A stretch of 42,394 nt of DNA from a virus. A program made the translations under genes and the position numbers. The stretch's first letter is position 1, and each line of letters begins with the position of its first letter. The stretch is taken from positions 1 to 42,394 of the IMG/VR virus record IMGVR_UViG_3300006990_000059; one strand, given 5' to 3'. Below are positions 44 to 36,977 of this stretch, piece by piece. A model generated the notes under the pieces. The model was not told the DNA's origin and made no database searches. It worked only from the letters and a program-made list of their open reading frames with translations.

Positions 44-694
44 TTATAAACCTGATAGAAAATTTTGGAATAAGTTAATCTTATTTTCTTCCAATTTTCT
101 CTGATCAACTAAAGTATTGATTTTTTTGTATGTTCTTTCTGCAAGTTTTTCGCGGAGAATTCCACCGTCCCAAACCCAATCTTTACCTTCCATGATACCG
201 TCAACAAAGGCATCAGGTGCGGAAGGATCTGCTACAATATCAGCAGCAGTTGCTAGAGCAAAGTCATCATTAACTAAACTATATCCTTCTTTAGTAGGAG
301 AAAGGGTTCCAATTCCTCTAGAAGAAACACCAAGCTTGACACCATCATTTAGAAGAGATTCGGCAATTTTACCCATTGGGGTAGAAAGAATTTTTGCCTT
401 ACCAATAAAATTATTTCCTTCTCTTTGAAGAGAAACAATCTTATGGGAAACTCGATCAAGATTAATAGAAGGGCCATCAGGGTGTCCCAATTCTCCAAGA
501 GCTCTGCCTTTAGATACAAAGTTTTCGTTGTATCGTCCTACTTCTCTTTCTAGGAGAGAGCAGTCATACATCCTCTTGTTTCTATTGGGCATATTACCCT
601 GAAGGAAAACTCCTTCAATATACAGATTCTTTTTACCGTTGCGTTGCTCAACGATAATTTCAACCTGTTCGATCTCTTCTCTGATAAGTTTCAT
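44..694 (-). CDS. gp21: Prohead core protease gp21
   Basis: This 216-aa protein matches the T4 gp21 family of prohead proteases, a herpes-assemblin-like serine protease fold that cleaves scaffold and capsid proteins after [I/L]-x-E during head maturation. Visible family features are GELGHP with the likely catalytic His at 71, and GVSSRG with the likely catalytic Ser at 124 or 125. The conserved ADIVADPSAPDAFVDG follows at 151-166. The length is close to T4 gp21 (about 212 aa). It is the last gene of the portal-to-protease block and starts 4 bases after the 88-aa gene ends. No strong Shine-Dalgarno is seen, so translation may be coupled to the gene upstream. Family knowledge and synteny (gp20, gp67-like, small gene, gp21) agree. 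Confidence 0.95.
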   Translation of the reverse strand: MKLIREEIEQVEIIVEQRNGKKNLYIEGVFLQGNMPNRNKRMYDCSLLEREVGRYNENFVSKGRALGELGHPDGPSINLDRVSHKIVSLQREGNNFIGKAKILSTPMGKIAESLLNDGVKLGVSSRGIGTLSPTKEGYSLVNDDFALATAADIVADPSAPDAFVDGIMEGKDWVWDGGILREKLAERTYKKINTLVDQRKLEENKINLFQNFLSGL

Positions 695-5995: not shown

Positions 5996-6223
5996 TTACC
6001 AGTCTGGATAGTCGTTTTTGAAGGAAGTATCAATTTTTCTTGAATTCATGACACGTTTAATTGTGCATTCTTTACACTCATATGAATATGCTGATGGAAA
6101 AGATCCTCTATCCTTTCTAGTAAGATAAAAATCAGTCAATAAATTTTTTGTTTGGTAACAAGATCTACATTGTCTTTCATTGAAAAGAAGATGTTCTAAC
6201 TCAAATGAGTCTTCAATATCCAT
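5996..6223 (-). CDS. Small zinc-finger protein between gp17 and gp18
   Basis: This 75-aa protein has two CxxC pairs, Cys19/Cys22 and Cys50/Cys53, which should bind one zinc ion. The pattern (CRSC, about 27 residues, CKEC, then basic KRVMNSRK) resembles the zinc-binding N-terminus found before HNH or endonuclease VII-like domains in many phages. No HNH catalytic His/Asn set is present, so it is a stand-alone finger. The start codon overlaps the gp17 stop (TAATG), which suggests coupled translation and a job near packaging or late gene control. In T4 gp17 and gp18 are adjacent, so this is an insertion relative to T4. The function is unknown. Confidence 0.85.
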   Translation of the reverse strand: MDIEDSFELEHLLFNERQCRSCYQTKNLLTDFYLTRKDRGSFPSAYSYECKECTIKRVMNSRKIDTSFKNDYPDW

Positions 6224-7869
6224 TACCTATAATCCCACATATAAGATCTGTCACCGTATTCATCAGCGAACCATCTATCTCCATCATTATCAACTTCACT
6301 TACAGTATCTAAACCATCAGCGATAAAACCAAACGGAGCCATATCTTGATCGATTTGATTTTTTTGATCTTCATAAATTCTTTTACGAACATCATTATCA
6401 GTCATTTCTTTGAAATAATCTTGTGCAACTAACCATGAGAATATAACTAGACACATTGCTAGATCATCATTACATCCCTCTTCAGCCTCAAATGATTGTC
6501 TCTTTTGAACAAATGTAGTTAGTTCGGAAATAATATCATAATCATTTGTTAAAAGTTTATCATCTTCTAATAAAGTTTTTAAATTAGAACATCCTAATTT
6601 TTTTACTGCTGATGTCATTCTGACACCCAATTGAGATTTTTTACCAGAAAATCCAGATCCAACTACTTGCCCTGCTCTACCTCTCATAGAACACATTAGC
6701 AAATTTTCATATTCAAGATCAAAATAAAGAATAGATGCAACTTGATCACCAATATCGTTGACTTCAACTAAAACATATGATTGATTATATCCGTCTGCAA
6801 CTTGTTTGATGATACTTGGAAATACCATCGGTTTTATTTCATTATTTCTATATTTTGCAACTATCCTATATGGAAATTGTGTTATGTCATATACAATGAA
6901 AGCTGAATAGTCACGTTCTACTCCTCTAGCAACGTCAACCGTCATCATATAATTATGATCCTTTATAGGATCTTGGTAAATATCTAATCCTTTATTTCTT
7001 TTTATTGGATCATCATATACCAAATTTCTTAGTTTAGTTACGTCAATAAGAGTATCAACGGATCCTAGAAACTCACACTCAAACTCGACCTTGAACTGTG
7101 CTTCTGATGTGTTTGAAATAGTTTGAGCTTTCCACTTAGCGTTCCTTCCAGGAACTTCAGACCAGTGTACTGCAGTTGGTATATATTCATTTTTATTTCT
7201 TTCTGCATCATGCCACATTCGGTAGAAGTGATTCATACCATGTGGTGTTGAAACAATAATTACCTTGGTGTTTTTACCAGACGAGATAGTAGGATAAACA
7301 GAGGCAAAGAATTGGTCAGCAATATGATTTGGGATGAAAGCGAACTCGTCAAGAAAGATGATATTATAGGACCCGCCACGGACAGCAGATGCAGATGTAG
7401 ATGCGGCGATAATTTTAGATCCATTCTCCAACTCCAATGATTGTTTGTTCCAAGAAACAATACCCTGTTGCATCCACTTGGGTAAATTTTCATATGCAAG
7501 TTGCAATCTTCCAAGAAGATCTTTCGCAGTAGCTGCTTTGTTTGCTAAGATAGCAATATTTACATTGTCATTAAAGACGGCATAATGAAGTAGATAAGAT
7601 ACGCATGTTGTAGACTTACCAGTCTGACGTGGCATCTTACAGATGTTAAATCTATTCTTATGAAAGTTTTTTACAAGTTTCTCTTGGAACTTGTACATCT
7701 TAAATGGTACAAGACCCTCGTCTAGAGAAACAATTTTGATATAATTTCTAGCAAAATATACAGGATCTTTTTTACACTTCAAGAATTCACGAATATCATC
7801 TTCAGAAAATTGAATCTTTGTATTCGCTTTTTTTAGATTGGGATTACCAAGATAAATGCTTTCACTCAT
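6223..7869 (-). CDS. gp17: Terminase large subunit gp17
   Basis: This 548-aa DNA-packaging motor has an N-terminal ATPase and a C-terminal RNase H-like nuclease. Walker A is RQTGKST (81-87) and Walker B is IIFLDE (170-175). The coupling motif is VSTPHG (206-211). The nuclease acidic residues are in VDVARG (Asp312), VEVNDIG (Glu369/Asp372) and NDDLAM (Asp468/Asp469). T4 gp17 is 610 aa; this one has a shorter N-terminus, as is common in cyanophages. All catalytic residues are present, so it should be active. It is followed with a 1-base overlap by the zinc-finger gene. It is preceded by two genes that separate it from gp16. Confidence 0.98.
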   Translation of the reverse strand: MSESIYLGNPNLKKANTKIQFSEDDIREFLKCKKDPVYFARNYIKIVSLDEGLVPFKMYKFQEKLVKNFHKNRFNICKMPRQTGKSTTCVSYLLHYAVFNDNVNIAILANKAATAKDLLGRLQLAYENLPKWMQQGIVSWNKQSLELENGSKIIAASTSASAVRGGSYNIIFLDEFAFIPNHIADQFFASVYPTISSGKNTKVIIVSTPHGMNHFYRMWHDAERNKNEYIPTAVHWSEVPGRNAKWKAQTISNTSEAQFKVEFECEFLGSVDTLIDVTKLRNLVYDDPIKRNKGLDIYQDPIKDHNYMMTVDVARGVERDYSAFIVYDITQFPYRIVAKYRNNEIKPMVFPSIIKQVADGYNQSYVLVEVNDIGDQVASILYFDLEYENLLMCSMRGRAGQVVGSGFSGKKSQLGVRMTSAVKKLGCSNLKTLLEDDKLLTNDYDIISELTTFVQKRQSFEAEEGCNDDLAMCLVIFSWLVAQDYFKEMTDNDVRKRIYEDQKNQIDQDMAPFGFIADGLDTVSEVDNDGDRWFADEYGDRSYMWDYR

Positions 7870-7881
7870 AATTAAAAAAAA

Positions 7882-8166
7882 TTAGCCTTGATATACTACC
7901 GATGTTGCGTATACATCTGATGCAGAAGAATAGATCAAATCCGTCCTACTTTTATGTATGATAATTGGGTCATTACTAGACATATGCATACTTCCATATG
8001 TGACACCAGCACCTGTTCTTACTTCAACCATACGATCCGATGAATGACTGTGCTGGATCATTGCATATTCTGCACCAACACTACCGTATGTAGCTGATGC
8101 TGGAACTGTACTTCCAGAACCAGCATTTACTTGTACAGATTCTCCTAAAAGTTTTACTACTAACAT
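7882..8166 (-). CDS. Small beta-rich protein, paralogue of the 88-aa protein
   Basis: This 94-aa protein has no recognised family name. Predicted content is mostly beta, with many Ser, Val and Tyr residues and no charged clusters. Its C-terminal 37 residues align with the end of the 88-aa protein (699-965) with no gaps: shared GSM.M, K, DLI, DV and T.V positions. It starts one base after the TGA of the 486-aa gene, and a GGAA run precedes the ATG, so it is co-translated with that gene and gp17. The location between terminase genes and the paralogue near the portal suggest a head or packaging accessory protein; this is inference. Confidence 0.8.
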   Translation of the reverse strand: MLVVKLLGESVQVNAGSGSTVPASATYGSVGAEYAMIQHSHSSDRMVEVRTGAGVTYGSMHMSSNDPIIIHKSRTDLIYSSASDVYATSVVYQG

Positions 8167-8167
8167 A

Positions 8168-9628
8168 TCAGCAATTCCAAGCTCTTAGTGATTTTGATAG
8201 ACGATCATCGCCTGTGTTATTAGAAGGTTTTTGTCTCTTACGCATTCCTTTCATCCTTGCACAGAATGATGCTCTTCTCTTGTTACCAACTTTTTTAGAA
8301 GGTGCTTTCAGATCAGAACCAGGATTCTCTTTTTCGTAAGACTTACGTCCCTTCTCATTGAGTCCACCTTCTTTGTTCTTACCAGACTTCTTAGTCCAAG
8401 CGGCACCTTCTGCCATGAAATTTCCAAAACTCTTGACACCTTCTACAGTTATAAGCGGTTCATTTTCAATACGATCTCTTTCAAAGAAATTTGCTAATAT
8501 AGCATCAGGATAAATTTTTCTGAGTTGAATTAATACATCTTCCCTAGAAGGTCTTGTTGATGTTGGGAAGAAAAATTGAAGTGACTTATGCTGACCTCTA
8601 AAACTAAAGAAGATTGTATAAGTTCTTCCCGTTTTTTGAATTCTTTCATATTTTTCTCCAACATACTCTTCATTTGATGGAGTGACAGAAGCAATATCAA
8701 ATGTATTTGATCCGAGAGAAGTAGGACTTGAATTCATATCCCAGTTTTTTGGCCCATATGCACACTCTTCTCTAGTCTCATTCTTTTGGCACTGAGGGCA
8801 ATAACGAACATTTCCCATACCCTCTACATGTAGACTGAGATTGTCACTGAGATTTACTTCTTCTTTCTTAGTTTTCTTAACACAGTTTGGATATCTCTTT
8901 CCAAACATAGTCTTCATACCTTTTTTCTCATAACCTTTCCAACATGCTTCGCCAATCTCCACTTCTTCTTTTGTGCTATTACCCCAGTTAGCAGCACCAG
9001 CCTTACGACACTTTACTAAAGCACCAGAAGCATACGCAGAGGGCCATACAGAATAACGAGACTTGACCTTATTGTAACAAGCGTCTTTTGTTCCGCTACC
9101 TTTAGTTTTTTTGTCTTTTGCTTCTGAGACTGATAATAGGTTTTCTTCCTTCATTTTCTTTTTGTCAGTAGAAACGTAAGTTGGTTTTGCTGCACCAGAT
9201 TTTTGTTGTTGGCCAGGATCTGCTGCTTTTTTTCTTCTTTGAGCAGAAAGTCTTTCTGCTTTACTCATACTTGATCTTTTTGCTGAAGAAACACACTTAG
9301 GAGTTCCTTCTCCAGGTTTATCACTTGCACAGGTTCCACCTGTTACAACATTAACCCATCCACTTTTACCACCTTTTGATTTAGATTTACCAAACCAATC
9401 ACGTAGCCCTTCTTCAGATATTCCCCCGCCACCATTACCATTTCCACCATTGCCATTACTACTTTCACCATTACCATTACCATTCTTTTTATTTTCGGAA
9501 TCATCACCTTCTTCATCTTTTGAAAGATATCCACGAGAACCAATATGGTATCCCATAGGAATCTTCTTACATTTTTTATCTGTAAAACAGTAGTAATAAC
9601 CAATTTTACATTTCTTAGATTCCGTCAT
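8168..9628 (-). CDS. Modular mosaic of small basic/Cys domains, inserted between gp16 and gp17
   Basis: This 486-aa protein is a chain of short modules. They are a Cys-rich start (KCKIGYYYC, 7-15), an Asn/Gly linker (49-69), and a DUF5872-like basic segment (73-137, GWVNVVTGG then SKAERLSAQRRKK). Next are YNKVKSRYSVWPSAYASGAL (185-204) plus VKCRK, EACWKGYEKKGM with YPNC (227-249), and a CPQC segment (270-293). They are followed by an alpha/beta stretch with FFFPTSTRP (325-382) and a DUF6321-like tail (408-486, with RRASFCARMKGM). Such modules occur separately or in various mixtures in cyanophage proteins; I know no proven role. The high Lys/Arg content suggests nucleic-acid or capsid-interior binding. 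The gene overlaps gp16 by ATGA. [I/L]-x-E sites at 70-72 and 225-227 would fit cutting by gp21. The DUF names are from memory. Confidence 0.85.
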   Translation of the reverse strand: MTESKKCKIGYYYCFTDKKCKKIPMGYHIGSRGYLSKDEEGDDSENKKNGNGNGESSNGNGGNGNGGGGISEEGLRDWFGKSKSKGGKSGWVNVVTGGTCASDKPGEGTPKCVSSAKRSSMSKAERLSAQRRKKAADPGQQQKSGAAKPTYVSTDKKKMKEENLLSVSEAKDKKTKGSGTKDACYNKVKSRYSVWPSAYASGALVKCRKAGAANWGNSTKEEVEIGEACWKGYEKKGMKTMFGKRYPNCVKKTKKEEVNLSDNLSLHVEGMGNVRYCPQCQKNETREECAYGPKNWDMNSSPTSLGSNTFDIASVTPSNEEYVGEKYERIQKTGRTYTIFFSFRGQHKSLQFFFPTSTRPSREDVLIQLRKIYPDAILANFFERDRIENEPLITVEGVKSFGNFMAEGAAWTKKSGKNKEGGLNEKGRKSYEKENPGSDLKAPSKKVGNKRRASFCARMKGMRKRQKPSNNTGDDRLSKSLRAWNC

Positions 9629-10038
9629 TGTTGGCTTTTAAGAAATTTAGCTAGTTCTGCAGTAGACCCTACAAATAATGAATTATTCGTAATGGATTTT
9701 GGACCAGAGTCCTCATCTTTATTTAGTTCCTTCATTTTTTTCTGCAAATCTATAAGTTTATCAGTTGTATCTGCAACACTTTTTATAATCTGTCCAGCAA
9801 CTTCATATGCTCTAGGAGAATCTGACTCCTGAGCTAATTCCATAATTCCATTTAAACTTTCTTGACCCTTTTCAATTAAAGAATAAAGATTTCCTCTTGT
9901 ATATTCATAGTCTTTCTTAGACTGTTCAATTCTTTCATCAGAAACAACTGGAATAATTTCAGATTCCTTGGGAGTGATATCTATAATATCAGTTTCAGTA
10001 TTCAGAGAATCGCTAATTTTATCGAATGATTTTGACAT
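9625..10038 (-). CDS. gp16: Terminase small subunit gp16
   Basis: This 137-aa protein matches cyanophage gp16, the DNA-recognition partner of gp17. The central helical region (about 58-105) carries the recognisable SPRAYEVAGQIIKSVADTTD followed by KLIDLQKKMK, which forms the coiled coil of the oligomeric ring. The N-terminal 50 residues are acidic and polar. T4 gp16 is 164 aa. It starts 9 bases after gp15 ends, with no good Shine-Dalgarno. It overlaps the next gene by ATGA. It lies immediately after gp15 as in T4, but is separated from gp17 by two genes. Confidence 0.92.
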   Translation of the reverse strand: MSKSFDKISDSLNTETDIIDITPKESEIIPVVSDERIEQSKKDYEYTRGNLYSLIEKGQESLNGIMELAQESDSPRAYEVAGQIIKSVADTTDKLIDLQKKMKELNKDEDSGPKSITNNSLFVGSTAELAKFLKSQQ

Positions 10039-22742: not shown

Positions 22743-25700
22743 TTATAGGAAGATAATTTTACTTAGACTACCAGTGTTTCTAAGTCCCAATCCACGTCTT
22801 GATATTGAAGAGAAAGTTGTTAACCCAACATCAACGATATTTCCGCTTACGGAAATTGAAAGTGGAATATTTCCTCTAGTAAATCCAGAGAGTTTACCCC
22901 AAGAGAATTCACCAATATTTGCACCAGAGGTTTGGGCAATTGATATAACGTTTGTGTCAGATTTGATATTACAAGTAATAATACCTGTATTACCTTCAAT
23001 GTTAAATGCGTTCACTGTATAGATGTTATCTAACAGATTTGTTCCGATTCCAATTATATCGGAATCATCCACATTAACTGATGTGACTCCAGATCCAGTA
23101 ACAGTACCCTTAACAAGAATTGGATAACCTTCTAGTAAAGTTGGTAGTAAAGATACAGGGCCAGAATTATTCAAATCAACTTGAAGTTTAAGTGCAAGAG
23201 GATGACTACCAGTTCCAGTTGTTGTACCGATTCCAGTAATAATACCTGCGTAACCAAGAATAATATCTGCATTAGCAATAGATTCAGTTTCAGAAGCAGG
23301 GATTTCTACAATTGCTTTTGGTGGATTAGTTGGGTCATAACCTAATCCTTCATTAGTAATTGTTACTGAAGTTAATATTCCACCTGATGCACTACCAGTT
23401 AGAATTGCAGTAACTCCAACTCCGATAATTCCATATTTTGGATTGTCAACTTTTGTTGGATTTGCAATAGCAACTTCAATAGGTCCGTCAGTATATCCAG
23501 AACCAGCATCTACAATAGTCACTGCTGAAATTGTTCCACCAAGTGATACTGTTGCTGTGACTGCAGCCGCGACGGGATCGTTATGTTTAACAATGAAACC
23601 ATCTGCAACAACTAGACCAGTGTTTCCTTCATCTTGCTCATATCTAAAGAGATCTGCACTTTCAAGGAATATTTCAGAGTCAGATGCACCAAAGTCTTTA
23701 ATGACTTTGCTGGTTGGCATGATTTGTGCTTCAAGTGTTTCTCTGATTTTTGGTTGGTTTTGTTCAGAGATGATGATATCTTTCTTCTGCCTGGTAAATG
23801 AGATTGGTCTGAAGACGTTTGAATCGATACCTTGTCCTCTATAGACATTTGTTTCAATGTCGGTAGAGTCCTTAATGGAGAAGATTGTTCTTTCATTCTG
23901 AGTAATGGTTTCTGTTCCATCAAACTTCTTGAGTTGAACTTGATCTCCAGGTTTTACAGTCTCAAATACTGTAACAATGAAACTATCAACGCCTCTAGTT
24001 CCTCTATAGAAATAGATGGAAATTACATCAGATGGGCCTGGTGGTGAAGTGAAGTTGAAGTTGAAACTTGTACCACCTTCAAAGAAGTAATCCTTTTTGG
24101 GCACCTGAACAACACCGTTAACAAAGATCAAGAGAACAGAATCCAAGTCGATCTCAGCTGATCTTTGGTTTGTAGGATCTGTTTGGAAACTTAGAGGAAT
24201 ACCATTCAAGTTAAGTGGGAATCTAGTTCTAGTTCCATCTTGAAGACTTCTGATTGAGTCAATATAATCAATTTCTCCAAAGTTCCATGAAGAGAAAGTG
24301 TCACTAAGAATTTCAAGAACTTCAAAATTGAGTTGTGAATATTCAGTTCCTACTCCTGCTGCAGTAACAAGTCCAACTGGAGTAAAGATATCACCTCGTT
24401 TGAAGGAGAATCCAGCAGCGGATAATTCATAGTTAACAATTCCAAAGAGATCTGTTGCAAATCCAACAGTAGCAGCAGATCCAACTATACAGTCAACTTT
24501 TACACCTAATCCAGTTTCTATTGTAGCTCCAATGCCAGGTCTACTAACACCTTGAATTGGAAGATCAGAGTATGATGGTGTTTCGATTTGAATTGTTGGA
24601 TTTGTGTATCCAGATCCCTCACCTTCGATATTGAAGGATAAGACACCACCATCGTTTACAGTTGCTACTACTGTTGCAGCAGCGCCAGAATGACCTTCCT
24701 CTTCAACTACAACATCTACAGTATTGAAGTAACCAGAACCGAATGTCAAGTAATTGTATACTGCAACCTCAGCGTCTATACCACCTTTTCTTCTATTTGG
24801 AACAAATGTATGTGCAAATCCAACTTTCAAGACATCGACTATAAATTGTGTGGGTGATATGATAGTTTCAATTTCATATGGCCCAACTGATTTGACACCA
24901 AATACAACACCATGATCATCATAGATATGATCAATTGTAGAAACTCCTACATTAGTGATAATTTTGTTAGGAGCAGGAAGATCAAAGATTTGGAATTTTG
25001 ATCCTTGAGTTCCATCTGGGAAAATTGAAGTTGTGATGCCAATTCTAACCTTACCAGTTCCAGAAACATACTCGTGAGCAATTGTAGAAATACCTACGTT
25101 AGTAACGATTGATGTTCCAGAACTTCCGGCATTAACATTAAAGTAGAAACCTTGAGTTCCGTCTGGGAAGATAGTTGTTGTCACGCCTGCATGAGGAGCT
25201 GCACATGAGAACTCAATATCGCGAAGCATTACCAGATCACCATCACTTAAACCATGATTATCTGCTGTTAGGATTGTACTAACGCCAGTTGATGCGGTGT
25301 AATCAAAGTCGTAGATAGCAATCTCATTACCATATGCAAGACAAGTCATTGCAATTCCAGAGAGATTAATTATCTCCCCAATAGCAAGACCGCTATGATT
25401 TTTCTTAGTAGTAATAGTTGAGAATCCAGTTGTCTTATCATATTCAAAGTTTTCGATTGCAAAAGGAATTCCTCTATTATCTGGGAATCTAGTGGTCGTA
25501 AATCCAGTTTCAACAGTACCACCACCAACATAAGTATGTGCAAAACCGACAGGATTTACATTAGTGACGAATGTTGTTGGGCCAACAATTGAATTAACCA
25601 AATAACTATCAGCGTATGTTACGCGATTTAAATGTCCACTATTATCAACATATGTGTGAGCAATTGTTGATGGTCCGACATTAACTGTTAGTGTTGTTGC

Positions 25701-28700
25701 TGAAGTTGCAGTAACTTCAAATTCATCAATTACAGTATCTGGGAAGATAGTTGTAGTGACTCCAGAGTGCTCAGAATCACATGAGAATTCTAGATTTGCC
25801 AATCTGACAAAAGATCCAATTCCAATTCCATGAGTTCCCTTTGTAGTGATAGTACCAACACCGATAGACTCGGTGTAATCAAATGCGCTAATACCCCACT
25901 GAGTACCAATATCACTTGGGAACCTATCAGTAGTAACACCAATTTCTACTGCAGCCTCACTTGTTCCAGTTGGAATATGAGGGATAGTGGAAACGCCAAC
26001 CTGCACTTCAAATTTAGTTGTACTTGGTCTCTTAGTTACAACATTAAAGACTCTACCATTTGTTCCATCTGGGAAGAATGTTGTAGTGACACCAGCATGA
26101 GGAGCGGCACAAGCAAACTCAAATCTTTCAAGTTTGACTTGCATACCAGGATTTAATCCATGAACAAGGCTGGTGGTAATCGTCATGATACCAACAACAT
26201 TGTTATATTCAAATGTGCTAACACCAACTCTCTTATTGTAAGATCCTGCAGGGCAGATCATCTGTAAACCATCAAACTGAACTCTCATATCCTTATTCAG
26301 GTTATGATTTCCAGATGTTGTTACAGTCATGATTCCAGATACATTATCATAATCAACAGTAGAAACACCAACTAGACTGTCATAGCCACTAGTGCAATCA
26401 AACTGAATGTTTCTCATGTCTAAGAAATCATTAATAGTAAATCCATGAGGTCCAGCAGTAGTCACTGTTCCGAGACCACTTGTTCCATCGTAGATAAAAT
26501 CAGTGATTGTTGTATAAGTTCCTACAGTATCAAGACCAACGATATTAGTGATAGTACCACCAGCACCAACCTCAGCAATAACCTTAGCTCCAACTAGAGG
26601 TGCTACTCCGATTCCACCAGAAGATGCAACAGAAACAATTACACCACCAACTGGCAGTTTGTTTTTAATAGCATCAAGTTCACTGAGATAATCATCACCA
26701 GTTATCAGTTTAGTTCCACTGAATACTACTTCTACATCATCTACGTTAGATACAATTGAATATACATTCAGAGGGTTGTTATCAGTTGATTGACCCTGGT
26801 GAACACCATTAAGGAAGAGTAATCCACTTCCACTAGAAGTATCGAGACCAACAGGATAATCTCCGCCATTAACACTTAGTGCAAACGTTTTACCAATACC
26901 AGTGAATTCAGTTGAAATATCATCATAAAGTTCATTCGTACCGTAATCACTCTTTAGATAAACACGCCCATTAAATTCAGATCTAGTAAATGATAGCCCT
27001 CTATCATCGGTAACGAAGTCACCACCAGAACCTTTAGGTGTATCAACAAAGTGAATATCACTTTCTACAATGTTATATGATCCTCTGTGAACAATTGCTG
27101 TTCTATTGCTTTCATGAGCAGCTTCTGTTGTTCCAACAAATCCTCTAGTAACATTTACAAGTGGGAAAGTACCAACACCAGTAATTGGGCCAGTTCCTGT
27201 CGTACCAAATCCAACATTCAAGATGTTCATCAACTCATCATCAACCTTTAGAATATAATCAGGAACAAGAGTTGAGATACCAGATAGTGCAAGGAATGTT
27301 CTACCAACACCAATTTCTTCAATATTCTTATGTGTGACTAGTGTTCTAGAAATAGGATCTTGAACAACACCATCGAGAACAATCAATGATTTTTCAAGTT
27401 TTTTGGTAGTGTCAATTAGATGACTATTACCTTCACCAATACCTGTTGGTGAAATTCCAAGACCTTTTATAGCAAAGTCTTTCTTGGTAGCAAGTTTAAT
27501 GTTGTTATTATCAATTCTAATTACAAATAGATCCTCTGGTAGAATATTTGTGGTAACTCCAGAGAAATAAGACTGTCTGCTTGTAGTTGCCGTAGCCACA
27601 ACAGACATTGTAAGACCAATTCCAAGTCTTTCGGAATAATATGTACTACCAATACCAACTGGAACATTATTTGCAACAGTGAGAGATCCTGCACCAATAG
27701 CAGTAACAGTTCCAAATCCAGTTTCTGTGACAAGTTCACGAATTGTATCACCAATCGCAATAACTGAAGTGTTTGCAACTCCAGTGATAACTTTAGTTCC
27801 ATCGGAATCTCCGAGGAAGAATCTGAATGTGCTTCCAATACTTACAATAGTTGCACCAGATCCAACACCAGGTCCAAAGAACTCTTCACCAACAGATATA
27901 CCTGAACTATTGCTTGCTGAAGAAACAACATTTGATCCACTTCTAATATCACCGATTAAACTTTCACCACCAGCGGTTGTAGATCCAATAGTAATTGATT
28001 CTGAATTAATTCCGATGATAGATGATCCAGGTGTATACTTGATATCCTGGCCATTATTCATGAAATGACTTTCTAGGAAAATGTTTCCTGATGTCTGATC
28101 AAATACTGAACTATTTGTAGGATTAAATCTTCTTGCAAAAATTGGATAACCTTCATATTCTAAAGTGAAACTAGTTCTGTCTTGTGGAGTGTATTTTGCC
28201 TGTATAACAAGCTCAATAGAAGTTCCAAATCCAAATTCTTCAATTTGTTTAATGTTTGTATCTAGATCACTGTAAACAATCTCACTAAATTCTTCAATTC
28301 TGATTTCATCACCAACATATCTTGCATCTGGTAGGAAAACCAACTCACAGAAAACTCCGTTATATTGAGTACTAAATGTTCCAAGACCAATTGATGTGTT
28401 TATACCCAATTGTGGATACTCAAGAACATAGGTATCTTTTTGACCAAACTCCTGAGCAAATAGAACTTGACTTAATGATTCAGTATTTCCACTAGAAACT
28501 CTAATGATTGATTTTGAGAAACGATCAATAATTGATGTGATTCCAACAACTGTGATACCATAACCAGCATTAATAGTTTCTTGAATTACATTAGATTCTA
28601 TTCTTGCTGTTCTTTCTGTACCATTTTGCTGTGTGGTAAGTTTAAAGTGTTCTGTTCTCAATCCAACGTTGGTGGTTGTGAATCCAACAACATTTGCTTT

Positions 28701-31700
28701 AACTGTTGCAGTATTTGAACCATCATTATGGAATTCTAATTTTAGAACATCATTTACTATATCGGCACCAAATGTACCAATAGGTGAGAAACTTAGCAAT
28801 CTTTCACTACTATCAAATCCATATTGGCCAAGAGTTGCATTGACTCCATCATGAAGAACCGTTATTTCTGCATATTGTCTTTCAGAAGTTGTATTATCTG
28901 TAACTTCAACATATGCAAACATTGAATTGAATTCATCAGTATCAAATCCAACAATTTGATCTGTAGATCCAGCTCCGATTACAGTGGTTACGCCGATCAG
29001 TCTTGTATCACCAATAACATTGGTTCCAATACCAGTAGGTCTTGAATCAAATAGTTGACGGAACGCTTTTATATCATAAGTTTTTTCTGAATTTGATGGG
29101 GTATATCTTAAAGCGATAGTTCCATCTAACTGAGAAAATTCTGTAGAAAATTCTCCTAGACTTTCTTTCTCTTCATCAAGATTTACTTGTTGTTGAGGTT
29201 CAGATTTAATATTTGATTTTTCTAGAAGGAAGGTATTATTATTACCATCAGTAATAACGACCAAATCATAAATTTGGAATGATGTCAGATCAACAACGTC
29301 AGTTACTACAACTGTAAATCTAGAATATCCTGTCCCAGCTGGGAACTTAATAATATCTACGAAATCACCAACTAAGTTTTCTCTATCAATAAATGATTCA
29401 CTGATATCATCAATACTCAGAACTCTATTAGTCAAACATTCAATAAAGTTAGTAAGTTTTTTAGTTCCAAACTTGATTGAATTTGTAGTAAGTTGACTGA
29501 TATTAGTTATATTCTGTTCGACATCAGTATCAACTGCAAAATCAAAGAAATTGTTAGTTGTTACATCTGATTCAGAGAATAGGTCAATAACTATAGATTG
29601 TGTGCCATCACTAATGAAATTAGTAGAAGCAGCTGCTACTGAATTGATTTCAGTGTCAGCAAAATTCTTTGTACCTGAAATATGTGCCAAACGATTGACT
29701 GGACCAATTAGATCATTAAATTTAACAGGACTCTTAATACTATATGCTAGTTTTTGATAATAGTCATTATCTGACATGACTTGAGTATCATCATTCAAGA
29801 ATCCTTTATTTGTCAACCAACCAAAGTTAATTGTAGATCCGCATCCAACATCATGGAAACCATCAAAAGTCTTAGTGTCTACAACTGTTCCTCTAGCTCC
29901 AGAGATTGAACCAAGAAGTTTATTTCCAACAACCAGTAGTAAATCACCCTTGGTTTTAAGGAATGCTTCATTAGAAGAATCAACTTTCAAAACAGTTTTA
30001 GTTGTTTCACCTAAGTCGTTTTCTAATAGTAAAGGTTCGTTATCAATAAAATTCTTACTGGCGATGTCTACAGAGAATGTTGGGTAAGATTCTTTCTTAA
30101 CAATAGATCCAAAGTTAACATCAGTAACACCAATTCCAGGAGATCCTGTTCCTACTCCAGTTAGATTAATTGTAACTTCAGCAGGGTTGACACCAGCATT
30201 GAAACTTGCAACTTCAAAGAATCTGAATCCATAGTTTTTAGAATTAAATCCATCGCCTTCTCCGGTATATTCCTGAATACCATCAACAAATACTTCATCC
30301 CCTGCTTGTAGTGGGCTTGTTGAGAATCCTAATACTGGAGTCACAACAGTTAGAGTCATAATTCCAGTTTGAACACTGTCAATCTTAGTAATACTTAGAC
30401 CATTATCATTAATCAAACTAAAGACACTATGACCAACACCCTGAAGACCACTTCCAGGATTAATGATCTCAACACCACTAATACTTCCAGAGTCTAATTC
30501 GGCAATGATACTTATATCATCAACTTGCTCAAGACTTACTGAGTTTACAAGGACTAAGTTTGGAGCAGTAATAAAGTTTTTCCCACCATATACTGGTATG
30601 ATATTATCAACAGAGAAGTAATTTGTAAGTTCATGTCTTGCTGGAATGTCAGCTACTGGTTTTAGAGTTTTATCAACAGCAAAGTCAAATCCAGGTTTCT
30701 CAACTTCAGTTCTATCCAACAAACCAATATTGGTTGATTTGGGAGAAATTTCAGCATTAACTCCTAAGGTTGTTGTAATTGTTGTTATTCCAGGAAGTTT
30801 GTCATAATTACTTCCTTTGTTCAAAATATTGAGTTTGGAAATTCCACCGAAGGCAGTAGTTGATTTTGTAGAATATTCTAACTTATCAACTTCAGTAGAA
30901 GTATAAGAACCTTTTTCAGGTTTTTCTGAAAGACTGACTAAGAATGTTGTGCCTGTAGTTCCTACTCCAACTACAGATGTTTTTATAGCATACTCACTAT
31001 CAACATATAGAATTCTTGAGAAATTATCTACTGAAATATCAGGTTCTACAAGAGTATTATTTGAAATTTTTTCTAAGTTATAATATAGTTGCTCTGGTAA
31101 ATACTCGTTAAACTTAACAGTAAAACTAGCCGTTCCCAGTCCAACAGTTCCAATTCCAGTCAATTCAAATGCTTCAGAACGTCCAGTTCCAACAAGTTCA
31201 TTTCTATAATCAGAATCATAGAAAATTCTAAAATTATAACCAGACAAGGAACTATCTGATACATCAAATTTGATATTATTATTTCTAGTTACTTTTATTT
31301 CAGGGTTTACTTTAGATATTGTATGTGAAGTTCCACCAACTTTGGTAAATTCAACTAATCTAATAGTTTCTCCTTCAAGGTCAGTTTTAGTTTCTGCAAT
31401 TGAGAATGCATCTGGATTATCAGAAAATACGAAATACTTTCCAGTATCAATACCAGTTGTTTCATTCGCATCATAGAATACCAAATCACCAGTAACTAAA
31501 CCATGACTCTCGATATTAAATCTTGAACTTGATAAACCAACTGAAGCTGAACTGAAACCAATGGGATCAATAATAGTATTTTGAGTGAACTCATTGAATA
31601 ATACTCTTACTGCTGTTGATGTTCCAACACCAACTGTTAGATTTGGTTTTACATTAAATCTAACTTTATCATCTTTTTCAAGACCATGAGAAGATGCTGT

Positions 31701-34700
31701 CGCTACTCTTGCAGTTAATCTTTCTACTCTACCAGTTACCTGCTTATGATCTGATGTGATTTGATATTCATAATCGTTCGTATCACAGGAAACGAAATTA
31801 ATTTCTGCAGAATCTAAAGTAGTTTTAATACCAATGATATTTGTGCCTTTATTGACAGCATATACTAGTTGCTCATTGCCAGATAAAGGAAGAGTAAATG
31901 TATATGCAGCACCAACTGTAGATACTGCAATAGCATTACCAGATGCTGGTTTTATAATCTTAATTGGTTGATTATCTGTAAATGTATGATTCTCAAGATA
32001 AATTGAATATGTTGGAACACTTCTATCAGTTGTTGCACCACTAACAACATAATCTGTATCAATTGCGATACCTAGAGTAGTTCCAAATCCGACGGCTTCT
32101 TTAGGATTGAAATATACAACATCATTTGGTGTAGAATCTAAAGTTGAACCATTAAAATTAAATATTATTTGACTGGATTTTACTAATATAGGAGCTCCAA
32201 CAGTATGACCAGTCCCAGAGGTTCCTCTTACTGCTCTGATTATGTTATTAAATGAACCAGAAGTGTTGTAGATATTGAGAACTTTAAAAGTTTCATCATC
32301 AATTTGAAGTTCAGAGTTTGGTCTTAAGAACTCTGGGACATTCGAGACGGGTATGTCTGTGGTTATACCACCAACAAATTCTGCTACTATGTTATCAGTT
32401 AAACTAAAGTCGTCAGATGGAACTCCAATAGTCACATCACCAGACAAATTAGCAACATAAGTTGAGAGACCAGAAATTTTAACAATATCATTCGGTTCCA
32501 AATCATGGAATGTTGAAATGAATCCAGCTACCTGATTTCCATTAAGGGTTTCAAATACAAATTTATCATATGTTAAGAATTCCTCTGTTATACTATTAAC
32601 AAAGTCTCCAGTAACTTCTGAGACTTGAGCAGATGCTGATCCACCAGTTGTATCACTATTATCAAATACAACATTATCACCAATTTGATAATTTGATCCT
32701 TTCTTTACAATAGAAATATTTTGTATTTCACCTGTTCTTCTAGACCTTACAATAACCCTTTGACTATCAAAACTATAAGGTTGAGTAAAGAAGTTATAAT
32801 CAGCACCAGCTTCAGAAACATTGTATGGGAAAGTATTTCTAATTAATTCATTTCCAATAAAATCAAAATTTTGATTTAGTGATACTGAAGATCCTGCAAG
32901 ATTTTCTTCAATAACATTAGATCTATATGAATCACCAATGAAATATGGGAAACTAGATGCGAGATCTCCAGTTAATGGATCTAGTTCTAACGTTGCAAAG
33001 TATGCATAAGTTCCGTTTGGAAACTCTGGTGTTTTGGTAAATTTACCATTGTGCTTATCTAAGTCGCCAGAATCAGTAAACAAATAATCTTCAGCAAATA
33101 ATCCAGATTCAAATCCACTTGGTCTATTTGTGACTTGATTGATATCAATAATATAACCAGATTCAATTAGTTTAATAGCAGAAGTTTGATCATTTGAATC
33201 TGTATAACCAAAACATCCATAAATTGGATTTCCGTCATATGCCCATCCAATTAGTGGTGAGTGCTTGGTGTTATCAGTGTCTTGGAAATCTGATTGTAAT
33301 TTTGGACTATATCCAACAACAGCATATTGTAAACCGTTTTCACCTTTATCAATGATAGCTTCACCACCATAATCTTTAAATCTTGCTCTGCTGTTGAGAG
33401 TTAGACTTCTAATAGCTGAACGTAGAACTGCTCCACTTCCTCTTGATACTGGTTCAATTTTAGTGTCTGAGAAAACATAATTGTTACCACTCGCAATAAC
33501 AACTACATCTATAACCTCACCATTATCATTAGTAACCGCTCTTGCTATACAACCACTTCCAGATTCACTAATGATACTAATATCAGGTGGAGAAAAATAG
33601 TTTTTTCCTGGTTGTGATACTAAAATATCAATAATCTTTTTATCAACAATTACCGCTCTAAATTCTGCTCCAGTTCCGTTATCAATACTTACAGCTGGTC
33701 TATTGTGGAAGTTTAGAACTTTAGATCCATATGATGTTCCACCATCATAAAGAAGGGCATCTTTTATACTGCCTGTTACAATAGGAGTAGCTGTTACAAC
33801 ACCCACAGTATTTGCAATGGATACTGAAATATCAACTGTGATTTCTGGATAGTTGAATACGTGAAGACCTGTTCCAATCCCAGCGATTTTTTCAGTCAAT
33901 CCTCTATCAAAATTAGTATTGCTAGTTCCTGCAACACCAGCGTCTGCAATTCTAAAGCTGTTATCATCTACTTTGATAACATAATACTGATTGGATGCTG
34001 ATAGATTAGGAATCTTATCACCAGTAGCACTATATGTAATTAACTCACCTGTAGAATAACCATGATCTTTAAATGAGAATGAATTATTTGATGTTGAGAT
34101 ACCTGTTGTTTGAATAGCAACTTGTCTATTTTCATATCCAACCCCACCATCTAGAACAACAACACCAGTTAATTGCTTGGTTGATTGTGCAGTTCTAAAT
34201 TTATGTAAACCACCACTGTTATTACCAGTACTAAAACCAACAGTGTTTATACCACTATTAAAATCCGATTCATTCTCGTATAATCTAAAAGATACTGGAT
34301 CGATAACTTCGGTAAAGTACTTACCACCAGTTTCTAGGAAATTACCAGTAACACTAGTCAATCCAAATCCAGTGACTCCTAAAGATCTGTTACCATTTGG
34401 ATCATAGATAATTTCTTGACCATTTCCAAAATTATGATTATTGGTTGTTCTAATAAAATCACCATAAACGGAGACGCCACCACCATCAGAGGCATTTTTA
34501 CCATTAAATCCAACTTCTCTAAATTGATCAATTACAATTGGTTCGACTAAAGCCCCAGTTCCATTACCACCACTTATACTGATGCTTATAACTTGATCAA
34601 TATCAAAGTCTTGTGGATCAATAAGAATATCTTTAAGGGTTCCTGATACAGCAACATTTGCCAGAGCAGTATTTCCAGAATTATCCGAATCTGCAATGAT

Positions 34701-36977
34701 ACATTTTGGTGGATTGATTACATCATAATCAGATCCAAAATTGAAAACACTAACTTTTTCAACGGGTCCAAAAAATACTTTGTCGTCAATTTTATAATTT
34801 GTAAGTTCTACACCATTTTTAAGAATACCAGAAGCTCCAGCAACTGTGCTGGTTTCACTACCAGTATCTAATGATCTTATCAATGAAAACTTCTTTAGAA
34901 CCTTTTGTGGAGAAATCTTCTTATCAACTTGTTCTGATAATGAGAAGAAGTGAGATCCAGTATTTCCATCATCAGGAACATTTAGTTTTACATTGATATT
35001 GGTATCAATGAATGATCTAGCAACATAAAGCTTTATTTTATTGTTCGGTGATTGAACTTCAACAAAATAACTTCTACCAAACTCTAAACCTTTAATTGGT
35101 TCAGTTGCAGTTCCAGCAGAATAAATTACCTCATCACCAGTTATAAAAGGAACAGTATTTGAAAATGAAATATTATTGTAATCACCAAGTGAATCTTGAT
35201 CATCAAGAGTTCCAGAAGATATTGATGCCTCAGCAATTGAGGTTTCAATTTGATTTAGATCAATGTTGTAATCAGGTAAAGAGTTGGATGCAACATAAAG
35301 AGTACTACGATCTTTTTCAATATATGTGTTCAACACATTTGATACTATAGCATTATTACCATAGTTCAGTTCAATACCACTACTAGATGCCTTCTTGATT
35401 TGTCTTCTAATAGCATATGATCTACCCTGCACCAAATCGGAAATATTACCACCAGATAATACAACTTGCTTATCACCAGTGATTGTAGCTGTGGTTAATC
35501 CAACAATAACATCAAGAGTTTCTTTATTGATAACTTCTACATTATCACCATCACTAAGGAATGCATCATCTAGACTTCTTTCTAGAACAAATACAGAACC
35601 ATTAAAACTTTGAACGTTTATACTTGATGCAGTATTATATTTCCAAGAGTTGAATGAAATCTGTTCGTAAGTTTTATTAGCTGGAGGATTTAGAATTTTT
35701 GAACCAACTGTTTTGGTTCCATAAACTTCATTTATGTTTGCGTTGAAGATATCTTCCTGTGGATCAAATTCTGATATTACGCCAGTTAACCTAAGTTCTA
35801 CTTTTTCATTAGTATCACTTGTATATCCATATGCAACGTCATTGGTTCTAATATTAGTAGCAGGTGCCATGTTTGCAGTAACACCAGAACAACCTAAGAA
35901 TTGATTAATAGTTTTATCAGTGTATGTAATGACATCACTGCCATTTCTTAACACACCACTCTGAGGGAATCCAATGGTACTATCTACCAAAATTACATCA
36001 CTTCCAATGAGAGTATCCCCAATGGTTTTTGAACTTGGTGTTATAGAGAAGTTACCATCAAAACCAGGAGCTGGTTCCTGATATCTTAGGAATAGAGAAA
36101 CCGTATAATATGTAACTCCACCTCTAATAGTTGATTCTACTTCAGATATAGGAGCTGAACAACCACCAATATCTGGATTATTGCTATTACTATCCTGGAA
36201 TAGTGTTTGACCAGATAATTTGGATGGATCTCCACCACCAACCTTTTCGGTCAATAGTACTAGTCTTTTTCTGAATGATGCTTCAGACAGTTCAAGTAAA
36301 AACTCTGACTGCTTTTTAACTTTTGAGTTTTGGCCAAATAATATTGATATTAGAGTATTGATTGATTCAGCAGTACCCTTAGACTGATAGAATGACTTTA
36401 AATTCTTAACTAAGTTGTTTACATTTACATCTGAATCAAAAGATTCGTTTTCAAATCCAGGCGCATATAATACTTTTAAGTTTTTAAAATATTCTCGTAA
36501 AAATAGTGTACTAAGGTTAGTTACACCAATCCCTGTAGTATGGTCTTTGGCGCTGGTATTGTTAAATGTAACCTCACCATCATTATATTCACTGATACCA
36601 CTAAATCCACGAACACAACCCGTGAATGAATTGGTTGTGATTCCACTGTAATAAATTATCTCATCGTTAACTTGAAAGATACCATCTTTATTAGGATATC
36701 CTTTTGTAGATAATACATTGATAACTGTATCACTACTAGAGACATCTGATGTCAGAGTAGTAATGCCAGAAACTACTTCTGGAGTTATATTATCAAATTT
36801 TAAATATTGATCTAAATTATCAATTAGATCTGCAGGAGAGCCCTGAGAATCTTGTGATTTATAATACTGTTTTAAAAAATCAACCGCCTTTGGTGTTTCT
36901 AATGAAACATAAGATGGTAATTGACTTTCAATAATTTGATTGACTTTTACTCTTGTATCAAATCCAGTTTCTATCAT
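22743..36977 (-). CDS. Giant baseplate/tail protein in the gp7 position (4744 aa)
   Basis: This single open frame of 14.2 kb lies between gp6 and gp8, where T4 has wedge protein gp7 (1032 aa). The N-terminal 1-70 (MIETGFDTRVKVNQIIESQL and following) plus FLREYFKNLKVLYAPGFENE and KSFYQSKGTAESINTLISIL form a helical base that should anchor it in the wedge. The rest is beta-rich and modular. Visible units are RG-x-x-G/H modules (73-148, 316-382, 1532-1597, 3227-3300) and HGxxxGDxVxY units. GxGY units occur at 739-812, 1072-1149, 4072-4139 and 4472-4549. A tandem repeat block covers about 3490-3990, and an FVNGVVQVPKKDY module about 4249-4326. AAGG precedes the ATG. I infer a long wedge arm or fibre; gp7 identity rests on position. 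Confidence 0.93.
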   Translation of the reverse strand: MIETGFDTRVKVNQIIESQLPSYVSLETPKAVDFLKQYYKSQDSQGSPADLIDNLDQYLKFDNITPEVVSGITTLTSDVSSSDTVINVLSTKGYPNKDGIFQVNDEIIYYSGITTNSFTGCVRGFSGISEYNDGEVTFNNTSAKDHTTGIGVTNLSTLFLREYFKNLKVLYAPGFENESFDSDVNVNNLVKNLKSFYQSKGTAESINTLISILFGQNSKVKKQSEFLLELSEASFRKRLVLLTEKVGGGDPSKLSGQTLFQDSNSNNPDIGGCSAPISEVESTIRGGVTYYTVSLFLRYQEPAPGFDGNFSITPSSKTIGDTLIGSDVILVDSTIGFPQSGVLRNGSDVITYTDKTINQFLGCSGVTANMAPATNIRTNDVAYGYTSDTNEKVELRLTGVISEFDPQEDIFNANINEVYGTKTVGSKILNPPANKTYEQISFNSWKYNTASSINVQSFNGSVFVLERSLDDAFLSDGDNVEVINKETLDVIVGLTTATITGDKQVVLSGGNISDLVQGRSYAIRRQIKKASSSGIELNYGNNAIVSNVLNTYIEKDRSTLYVASNSLPDYNIDLNQIETSIAEASISSGTLDDQDSLGDYNNISFSNTVPFITGDEVIYSAGTATEPIKGLEFGRSYFVEVQSPNNKIKLYVARSFIDTNINVKLNVPDDGNTGSHFFSLSEQVDKKISPQKVLKKFSLIRSLDTGSETSTVAGASGILKNGVELTNYKIDDKVFFGPVEKVSVFNFGSDYDVINPPKCIIADSDNSGNTALANVAVSGTLKDILIDPQDFDIDQVISISISGGNGTGALVEPIVIDQFREVGFNGKNASDGGGVSVYGDFIRTTNNHNFGNGQEIIYDPNGNRSLGVTGFGLTSVTGNFLETGGKYFTEVIDPVSFRLYENESDFNSGINTVGFSTGNNSGGLHKFRTAQSTKQLTGVVVLDGGVGYENRQVAIQTTGISTSNNSFSFKDHGYSTGELITYSATGDKIPNLSASNQYYVIKVDDNSFRIADAGVAGTSNTNFDRGLTEKIAGIGTGLHVFNYPEITVDISVSIANTVGVVTATPIVTGSIKDALLYDGGTSYGSKVLNFHNRPAVSIDNGTGAEFRAVIVDKKIIDILVSQPGKNYFSPPDISIISESGSGCIARAVTNDNGEVIDVVVIASGNNYVFSDTKIEPVSRGSGAVLRSAIRSLTLNSRARFKDYGGEAIIDKGENGLQYAVVGYSPKLQSDFQDTDNTKHSPLIGWAYDGNPIYGCFGYTDSNDQTSAIKLIESGYIIDINQVTNRPSGFESGLFAEDYLFTDSGDLDKHNGKFTKTPEFPNGTYAYFATLELDPLTGDLASSFPYFIGDSYRSNVIEENLAGSSVSLNQNFDFIGNELIRNTFPYNVSEAGADYNFFTQPYSFDSQRVIVRSRRTGEIQNISIVKKGSNYQIGDNVVFDNSDTTGGSASAQVSEVTGDFVNSITEEFLTYDKFVFETLNGNQVAGFISTFHDLEPNDIVKISGLSTYVANLSGDVTIGVPSDDFSLTDNIVAEFVGGITTDIPVSNVPEFLRPNSELQIDDETFKVLNIYNTSGSFNNIIRAVRGTSGTGHTVGAPILVKSSQIIFNFNGSTLDSTPNDVVYFNPKEAVGFGTTLGIAIDTDYVVSGATTDRSVPTYSIYLENHTFTDNQPIKIIKPASGNAIAVSTVGAAYTFTLPLSGNEQLVYAVNKGTNIIGIKTTLDSAEINFVSCDTNDYEYQITSDHKQVTGRVERLTARVATASSHGLEKDDKVRFNVKPNLTVGVGTSTAVRVLFNEFTQNTIIDPIGFSSASVGLSSSRFNIESHGLVTGDLVFYDANETTGIDTGKYFVFSDNPDAFSIAETKTDLEGETIRLVEFTKVGGTSHTISKVNPEIKVTRNNNIKFDVSDSSLSGYNFRIFYDSDYRNELVGTGRSEAFELTGIGTVGLGTASFTVKFNEYLPEQLYYNLEKISNNTLVEPDISVDNFSRILYVDSEYAIKTSVVGVGTTGTTFLVSLSEKPEKGSYTSTEVDKLEYSTKSTTAFGGISKLNILNKGSNYDKLPGITTITTTLGVNAEISPKSTNIGLLDRTEVEKPGFDFAVDKTLKPVADIPARHELTNYFSVDNIIPVYGGKNFITAPNLVLVNSVSLEQVDDISIIAELDSGSISGVEIINPGSGLQGVGHSVFSLINDNGLSITKIDSVQTGIMTLTVVTPVLGFSTSPLQAGDEVFVDGIQEYTGEGDGFNSKNYGFRFFEVASFNAGVNPAEVTINLTGVGTGSPGIGVTDVNFGSIVKKESYPTFSVDIASKNFIDNEPLLLENDLGETTKTVLKVDSSNEAFLKTKGDLLLVVGNKLLGSISGARGTVVDTKTFDGFHDVGCGSTINFGWLTNKGFLNDDTQVMSDNDYYQKLAYSIKSPVKFNDLIGPVNRLAHISGTKNFADTEINSVAAASTNFISDGTQSIVIDLFSESDVTTNNFFDFAVDTDVEQNITNISQLTTNSIKFGTKKLTNFIECLTNRVLSIDDISESFIDRENLVGDFVDIIKFPAGTGYSRFTVVVTDVVDLTSFQIYDLVVITDGNNNTFLLEKSNIKSEPQQQVNLDEEKESLGEFSTEFSQLDGTIALRYTPSNSEKTYDIKAFRQLFDSRPTGIGTNVIGDTRLIGVTTVIGAGSTDQIVGFDTDEFNSMFAYVEVTDNTTSERQYAEITVLHDGVNATLGQYGFDSSERLLSFSPIGTFGADIVNDVLKLEFHNDGSNTATVKANVVGFTTTNVGLRTEHFKLTTQQNGTERTARIESNVIQETINAGYGITVVGITSIIDRFSKSIIRVSSGNTESLSQVLFAQEFGQKDTYVLEYPQLGINTSIGLGTFSTQYNGVFCELVFLPDARYVGDEIRIEEFSEIVYSDLDTNIKQIEEFGFGTSIELVIQAKYTPQDRTSFTLEYEGYPIFARRFNPTNSSVFDQTSGNIFLESHFMNNGQDIKYTPGSSIIGINSESITIGSTTAGGESLIGDIRSGSNVVSSASNSSGISVGEEFFGPGVGSGATIVSIGSTFRFFLGDSDGTKVITGVANTSVIAIGDTIRELVTETGFGTVTAIGAGSLTVANNVPVGIGSTYYSERLGIGLTMSVVATATTSRQSYFSGVTTNILPEDLFVIRIDNNNIKLATKKDFAIKGLGISPTGIGEGNSHLIDTTKKLEKSLIVLDGVVQDPISRTLVTHKNIEEIGVGRTFLALSGISTLVPDYILKVDDELMNILNVGFGTTGTGPITGVGTFPLVNVTRGFVGTTEAAHESNRTAIVHRGSYNIVESDIHFVDTPKGSGGDFVTDDRGLSFTRSEFNGRVYLKSDYGTNELYDDISTEFTGIGKTFALSVNGGDYPVGLDTSSGSGLLFLNGVHQGQSTDNNPLNVYSIVSNVDDVEVVFSGTKLITGDDYLSELDAIKNKLPVGGVIVSVASSGGIGVAPLVGAKVIAEVGAGGTITNIVGLDTVGTYTTITDFIYDGTSGLGTVTTAGPHGFTINDFLDMRNIQFDCTSGYDSLVGVSTVDYDNVSGIMTVTTSGNHNLNKDMRVQFDGLQMICPAGSYNKRVGVSTFEYNNVVGIMTITTSLVHGLNPGMQVKLERFEFACAAPHAGVTTTFFPDGTNGRVFNVVTKRPSTTKFEVQVGVSTIPHIPTGTSEAAVEIGVTTDRFPSDIGTQWGISAFDYTESIGVGTITTKGTHGIGIGSFVRLANLEFSCDSEHSGVTTTIFPDTVIDEFEVTATSATTLTVNVGPSTIAHTYVDNSGHLNRVTYADSYLVNSIVGPTTFVTNVNPVGFAHTYVGGGTVETGFTTTRFPDNRGIPFAIENFEYDKTTGFSTITTKKNHSGLAIGEIINLSGIAMTCLAYGNEIAIYDFDYTASTGVSTILTADNHGLSDGDLVMLRDIEFSCAAPHAGVTTTIFPDGTQGFYFNVNAGSSGTSIVTNVGISTIAHEYVSGTGKVRIGITTSIFPDGTQGSKFQIFDLPAPNKIITNVGVSTIDHIYDDHGVVFGVKSVGPYEIETIISPTQFIVDVLKVGFAHTFVPNRRKGGIDAEVAVYNYLTFGSGYFNTVDVVVEEEGHSGAAATVVATVNDGGVLSFNIEGEGSGYTNPTIQIETPSYSDLPIQGVSRPGIGATIETGLGVKVDCIVGSAATVGFATDLFGIVNYELSAAGFSFKRGDIFTPVGLVTAAGVGTEYSQLNFEVLEILSDTFSSWNFGEIDYIDSIRSLQDGTRTRFPLNLNGIPLSFQTDPTNQRSAEIDLDSVLLIFVNGVVQVPKKDYFFEGGTSFNFNFTSPPGPSDVISIYFYRGTRGVDSFIVTVFETVKPGDQVQLKKFDGTETITQNERTIFSIKDSTDIETNVYRGQGIDSNVFRPISFTRQKKDIIISEQNQPKIRETLEAQIMPTSKVIKDFGASDSEIFLESADLFRYEQDEGNTGLVVADGFIVKHNDPVAAAVTATVSLGGTISAVTIVDAGSGYTDGPIEVAIANPTKVDNPKYGIIGVGVTAILTGSASGGILTSVTITNEGLGYDPTNPPKAIVEIPASETESIANADIILGYAGIITGIGTTTGTGSHPLALKLQVDLNNSGPVSLLPTLLEGYPILVKGTVTGSGVTSVNVDDSDIIGIGTNLLDNIYTVNAFNIEGNTGIITCNIKSDTNVISIAQTSGANIGEFSWGKLSGFTRGNIPLSISVSGNIVDVGLTTFSSISRRGLGLRNTGSLSKIIFL
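25005..26500 (-). repeat. Tandem protein-coding repeats inside the giant gp7-position gene
   Basis: Encoded residues about 3490-3990 contain six copies of a unit of form Y-x4-G-x2-TITT-x3-HGL-x2-G-x-V-x-L-x4-F-x-C. Five or more also carry or are followed by G-[VIF]-TT-x2-FPDG. FPDG-type copies sit near plus-strand positions 25020, 25170, 25490, 25745, 25910 and 26070. The DNA copies have diverged, so the repeats are old or under selection for diversity rather than freshly duplicated. A conserved Cys in each unit is unusual for a phage fibre. Confidence 0.8.

Follow-up and report, generated by a model that had tools for sequence, protein, structure and literature searches.

A modular protein between the terminase genes of a marine cyanomyovirus: a probable T4-like internal-head precursor

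What does a modular protein of 486 aa do when its gene separates the two terminase subunits of a T4-like virus, and is it cut by the prohead protease encoded in the same stretch of DNA? According to an earlier sequence-only reading of this locus, the protein could be an internal head polyprotein that is cut to basic peptides. We consider that it is probably a T4-like internal-head precursor, which gp21 would cut at linkers into small modules, and the evidence for this reading and for its rivals is set out below.

The modular gene and its surroundings

The window, which is the whole stretch of DNA analysed here, is a 42,394-base virus record derived from a marine cyanobacterial virus and represents a cyanomyovirus fragment. 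The gene order of the window is T4-like and consists of gp15, TerS, the modular gene, a 94-aa ORF, TerL, an endonuclease VII-like gene and then a gp18-gp21 block with the order gp18, gp19, gp20, an 88-aa ORF and gp21, in which gp18 and gp19 were assigned from gene order. The genes on which the argument depends are the following:

9625-10038, minus strand: TerS (gp16), from profile searches
8168-9628, minus strand: modular protein, 486 aa, PHROG 727 / T4-GC 119 family, ATG start
7882-8166, minus strand: 94-aa ORF between the modular gene and TerL, from the ORF list
6223-7869, minus strand: TerL (gp17), from profile searches
44-694, minus strand: gp21 prohead protease (Peptidase_S77), PF03420 with E=4e-34

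The start of the modular ORF overlaps the TerS stop as ATGA, and the modular gene is probably translationally coupled to TerS. The splitting of gp16 from gp17 by a mosaic protein, to which the sequence-only reading had drawn attention, is present here; however, it is not unusual, because cyanomyoviruses have a known hot-spot in this interval (PMC3037559). The 94-aa ORF and the 88-aa ORF (699-965) both match phrog_19805, the former weakly, and S-SCSM1 g38 and g39 are similar-sized small proteins near gp21 that are labelled virion proteins. A 4744-aa ORF at window positions 22743-36977 presumably encodes a giant tail or baseplate protein.

The modular protein matches phrog_727 with E=7e-124. In S-SM1 and S-SM2, gp16 and gp17 likewise flank a member of this family, which in S-SM2 (gp109) is annotated T4-GC 119. 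In total, 464 phage records match the family, nearly all of them from Synechococcus, Prochlorococcus and other marine phages, and the annotations given to date are hypothetical, structural or virion protein. The ORF is real, and the modular character ascribed to it earlier is borne out by the 69 complete homologues, which show 40 different orders of modules. In 9 of 40 homologues (L083, L028 and L020 among them), a DUF192 domain is an additional module between B and C.

The modular protein has a pI of 9.6 and a net charge of about +37. Its modules and the candidate sites associated with them are as follows:

9413-9628, minus strand: module A (aa 1-72), Cys-containing N-terminal domain and Asn/Gly linker, with ISE at the end
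9413-9421, minus strand: candidate gp21 site ISE^E (aa 70-72), from the motif scan and homologue contexts
9146-9412, minus strand: module B (aa 73-161), pI 10.2
9146-9154, minus strand: candidate site MKE^E (aa 159-161), from the motif scan; missed earlier
9122-9130, minus strand: candidate site VSE^A (aa 167-169), from the motif scan and homologue contexts
8948-9121, minus strand: module C (aa 170-227), KDACYxKVK domain, pI 9.6
8948-8956, minus strand: candidate site IGE^A (aa 225-227), from the motif scan and homologue contexts
8654-8947, minus strand: modules D and E (aa 228-325), Cys-containing
8654-8662, minus strand: candidate site VGE^K (aa 323-325), before module F; missed earlier
8408-8653, minus strand: module F (aa 326-407), best-folded domain of the model (332-392)
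8408-8416, minus strand: candidate site MAE^G (aa 405-407), from the motif scan
8171-8407, minus strand: module G (aa 408-486), DUF6321, pI 10.6
8354-8362, minus strand: candidate site LNE^K (aa 423-425), within module G; missed earlier

Three of the four motif positions given in the sequence-only reading were exact (ISE 70-72, VSE 167-169 and IGE 225-227), and the fourth, MAE, is at 405-407 rather than 406-408. Its statement that two of the four obey [IL]-x-E is correct: ISE72 and IGE227 fit, and VSE169 and MAE407 are outside the strict rule. Among the newly added candidates, LNE425 fits the strict T4 motif, whereas MKE161 and VGE325 deviate.

Module G was identified as DUF6321 (PF19846) over residues 416-484, with 75.3 bits against a curated cut-off of 28.5. 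In the AlphaFold2 model, which has a mean pLDDT of 62, the protein forms discrete small units, with B beginning at 72, C at 181 and G at 425, D spanning 233-251 and F spanning 332-392. Confidence is low over 42-71, 137-179, 218-226, 255-329 (with few breaks) and 397-423. All of the candidate sites are within or at the ends of these low-confidence linkers, just ahead of the predicted folded units. PDB sequence searches with the modules gave no match, a PDB fold search gave nothing significant (the best, phi29 p6 with E=0.48, is unusable), the NCBIfam search gave nothing, and a viral fold library returned mainly cyanophage relatives.

Virion presence and capsid targeting

The modular protein is very likely to be associated with the head or virion. 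Absence from virions, which the sequence-only reading had named as evidence against itself, is not what was observed among the homologues. S-CREM2 gp137, which is located between TerS and TerL and contains modules F and G with hydrophobic-x-Glu before each, was detected in purified virions by 4 unique peptides with 4.1% coverage (PMC10665884 Table 3), a low coverage in a type of sample in which co-purified non-virion proteins are possible. Its neighbour gp136, which bears a capsid-targeting sequence (CTS), was detected by 8 peptides (PMC10665884 Table 3). In addition, S-SCSM1 gp29, which spans 99% of the query, is annotated as a virion protein. This label is carried by 48 ORFs of the S-SCSM1 record, as counted by eye, and the corresponding paper states 45 proteins (PMC9602691). 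Because the label is absent from TerS and TerL and present on a RegA-like repressor, it seems to have been assigned from mass spectrometry and not from homology. S-SZBM1_139, which contains a D-like module only, was detected by 4 peptides (PMC9146016) and gives weak support for virion presence. S-SZBM1_190, which is MS-detected and located between TerS and TerL, was rejected as a homologue because its sequence is that of a fibre-like protein.

The capsid-targeting peptide of T4 is MKTYQEFIAE. In T4 IPIII, targeting and processing depend on positions 4, 7, 8 and 10; processing is controlled by peptide residues 8 and 10, the cut falls after Glu10, and Asp10 blocks cutting (PMC9026906). The window protein begins MTESKKCKIGYYYC and has no N-terminal CTS, and no CTS-like ORF was found anywhere in the window. 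S-SZBM1 encodes module F and module G as two genes, S-SZBM1_191 and S-SZBM1_192, which begin with MKSFKSFLSE^S and MKTFKQYITE^A, respectively, and both of these are T4-like capsid-targeting sequences. Moreover, a family of small F-like genes starts with MKSFKQFISE^SV or close variants in 78/79 viral contigs, keeps the T4 functional positions 4, 7, 8 and 10 in 78/79, and is located within the same terminase region in S-SCSM1 and S-SZBM1. The targeting peptides of the neighbouring genes have I, L or M at P3 and never V. The similarity of these N-termini indicates that cyanophages use the capsid-targeting system of T4. A search of a limited paper collection for cleaved modular internal polyproteins, or for cyanophage capsid-targeting sequences, returned no report of either.

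T4 IPI, IPII, IPIII and Alt resemble the modular protein in that they are small, basic, cut by gp21 after hydrophobic-x-Glu (a candidate cut in the present case) and present in virions (PMC9026906), and searches of Pfam, PHROG and PDB returned no IPI/IPII/IPIII/Alt family. However, the T4 internal proteins are single proteins with one N-terminal propeptide, whereas the modular chain is built from as many as about seven exchangeable modules, and every junction between them has a site; in addition, the CTS that the window protein lacks has its key positions kept on neighbouring genes of its relatives.

The similarity to T4 extends to gp22 and gp67, which are also single chains with several gp21 cuts (PMC9026906). 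The fragments of these T4 core proteins mostly exit the head (PMC9026906), and if the modular protein were a prohead core scaffold of this type, the pieces produced by gp21 would mostly leave before packaging and none would be delivered. The low peptide coverage of S-CREM2 gp137 is in accordance with such a role. However, we consider this alternative unlikely: gp22 and gp67 are scaffold, whereas the modular protein is a string of folded, shuffled, Cys-containing domains, which are individually conserved and, in other phages, occur as free-standing proteins encoded next to capsid genes; relatives have a separate gp22 gene; and homologues are still detected in mature virions. Location of the modular protein in the head is well supported, and a position in the head interior is inferred.

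The hydrophobic-x-Glu motif at module junctions

The gene for gp21 (S77) is in the same window as the modular protein, phages that carry the homologues also encode gp21, and the specificity of this protease can be gauged from gp23 of related phages, in which a conserved L-x-E^[AQST] occurs where the propeptide should end, with L at P3 in 57/58 of these putative sites. In the window protein alone, [IL]xE occurs 3 times against 2.4 expected (P=0.45, i.e., chance level), and [ILVM]xE followed by A/G/S/D/E occurs 6 times against 1.8 expected (P=0.008), the latter pattern having been chosen post hoc. The motif count in this single protein is not decisive, and chance is not rejected by it.

The comparison was extended to 76 dereplicated homologues, in which the distinct contexts upstream of module starts were counted. 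Within 6 residues of a module start, [ILVMF]xE occurs in 206 of 245 distinct contexts, compared with a shuffle mean of 41.5 and a maximum of 62, for module anchors that were set after inspection and homologues that share descent. When only mutually dissimilar contexts are considered, the motif occurs in 89/109 (shuffles 18, maximum 33). The last Glu before a module has a hydrophobe at -2 in 79% of cases, compared with 9-29% at other offsets, and directly at junctions, 95 instances of hydrophobic-x-Glu were counted versus 1 of hydrophobic-x-Asp. The shuffles, together with the controls for spacing and for E:D, reject chance as the source of the junction motif, and non-conservation of the sites in homologues, the second outcome that was to count against the sequence-only reading, was not observed. 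After module B, hydrophobic-x-Glu follows in 47/65 homologous copies.

At the junctions, P2 is free, and P1' is mainly A/G/K/S/D and mostly small. This combination of a free P2, a fixed Glu, a hydrophobic P3 and a mostly small P1' would be the expected imprint of a Glu-specific prohead protease. The residues at P3 across the modular homologues are V61, L51, I46, M18 and F10; V accounts for approximately a quarter of the sites, and in terms of sequence preference, it is the weak point of the gp21-substrate reading. P3 does vary among prohead proteases, with S/A in phiKZ and SPN3US (PMC5694885). The head proteins of these two phages resemble the modular protein in being cut after Glu at a short motif with multiple sites per substrate (PMC5694885); they differ in having long propeptides, no modular array, and Ser/Ala instead of a hydrophobe at P3.

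The same junctions could belong to a virion protein that stays uncut, in which hydrophobic-x-Glu is a conserved linker or a recombination seam and gp21 is inactive on the motif. The strong shuffling of the modules agrees with a seam, and both V or M at P3 and the F-to-G junction, which is often LHTE/LQTE without a P3 hydrophobe, break the strict T4 rule. However, a seam or linker accounts poorly for a free P2, a 95:1 preference for Glu over Asp at P1 and a P3 hydrophobe at one spacing only, and in the DNA, the motif amounts to no more than NTN NNN GAR, which is a poor recombination seam. Furthermore, the motif is missing from stand-alone modules. We therefore rate an uncut protein as improbable, slightly more so than a scaffold.

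The stand-alone modules represent a natural control. Modules occur free-standing as small proteins in pelagiphages, cyanopodoviruses and a roseophage, and the phages examined were HTVC034P, Greip, HTVC103P, P-SCSP1i and CRP-901. These phages, being T7-like, are not known to encode an S77 protease, and the control therefore compares stand-alone with fused modules. The stand-alone DUF6321 (PF19846) of pelagiphages and cyanopodoviruses belongs to the same family as module G; in P-SCSP1i and HTVC103P, it is encoded alone and near the capsid gene. In viral contigs, hydrophobic-x-Glu precedes stand-alone DUF6321 in 0/40 cases, whereas nearly all fused copies have the junction Glu, with the full motif in 15/29 and LHTE/LQTE in most others. 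The interior of DUF6321 also differs: LNE is present in 75/75 fused copies and is not found in 42/43 stand-alone-like copies, which mostly have LNA and also LNQ. LNE425 in module G may be a further trimming site or may reflect lineage drift. In CRP-901 (1430-1870), unannotated adjacent small frames near an HVA1-family gene are free-standing modules C and B.

A proposed route into the head and its consequences

Cutting at several junctions at least is likely. We propose that the late gene would yield a single basic chain in which disordered linkers connect small domains, that this chain would be incorporated into the prohead core, and that gp21 would then cut after the linker Glu of hydrophobic-x-Glu at 72, 161, 169, 227, 325, 407 and possibly 425. 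The products would be mostly basic modules of 6-11 kDa, at least some of which would stay with the DNA in the mature head and be delivered alongside it, similar to the T4 internal proteins. The sequence-only reading is thus supported in part: an internal head polyprotein agrees with homologues in virions, conserved sites and an encoded gp21. Of the basic peptides that it suggested, clear basicity is confined to the predicted fragments B, C, F and G, and A and D+E are near neutral.

The adjacency of TerS and/or TerL to the modular gene at 77/80 loci and the mostly basic domains could suggest a packaging accessory or regulator that acts with TerS/TerL and is not head cargo, but this is very improbable, because P-SSM4 encodes its homologue at a distance from TerS and TerL, close to the virion cytidylyltransferase, the set of modules varies too much for a core component of the motor, and homologues occur in virions.

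To return to an internal-head precursor, ejection of the modules with the DNA is possible, at somewhat less than an even chance. By analogy with T4 IPI, for which a counter-defence role serves as the model (PMC3012670), the basic, Cys-containing modules might bind DNA or take over the host or its defences. More tentatively still, we suggest that marine T4-like phages possess a plug-in cargo polyprotein in which interchangeable domains, each with its own gp21 site, enter the head as one chain, are separated during maturation and are co-delivered with the genome. If this is true, the separated modules would act as several host-directed or DNA-binding proteins, and module shuffling would alter the delivered set without new packaging signals. 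A family found in hundreds of marine cyanophage genomes would gain a testable mechanism that includes a head-packaged precursor, gp21 processing and multi-protein delivery, and the set of proteins delivered by a phage could be read from its cut sites.

A separate observation concerns the cyanophage NMNAT/cytidylyltransferase, which is recurrent in virions and starts with a T4-like capsid-targeting peptide (S-SCSM1_91, MKSFLQFLKE^A; S-SZBM1_140, MRFRQFIIE^A; PSSM4_155, MKKFSAFLKE^A; S-CREM2 gp154, MKNFSSFLTE^A). This peptide would explain the packaging of NMNAT in virions.
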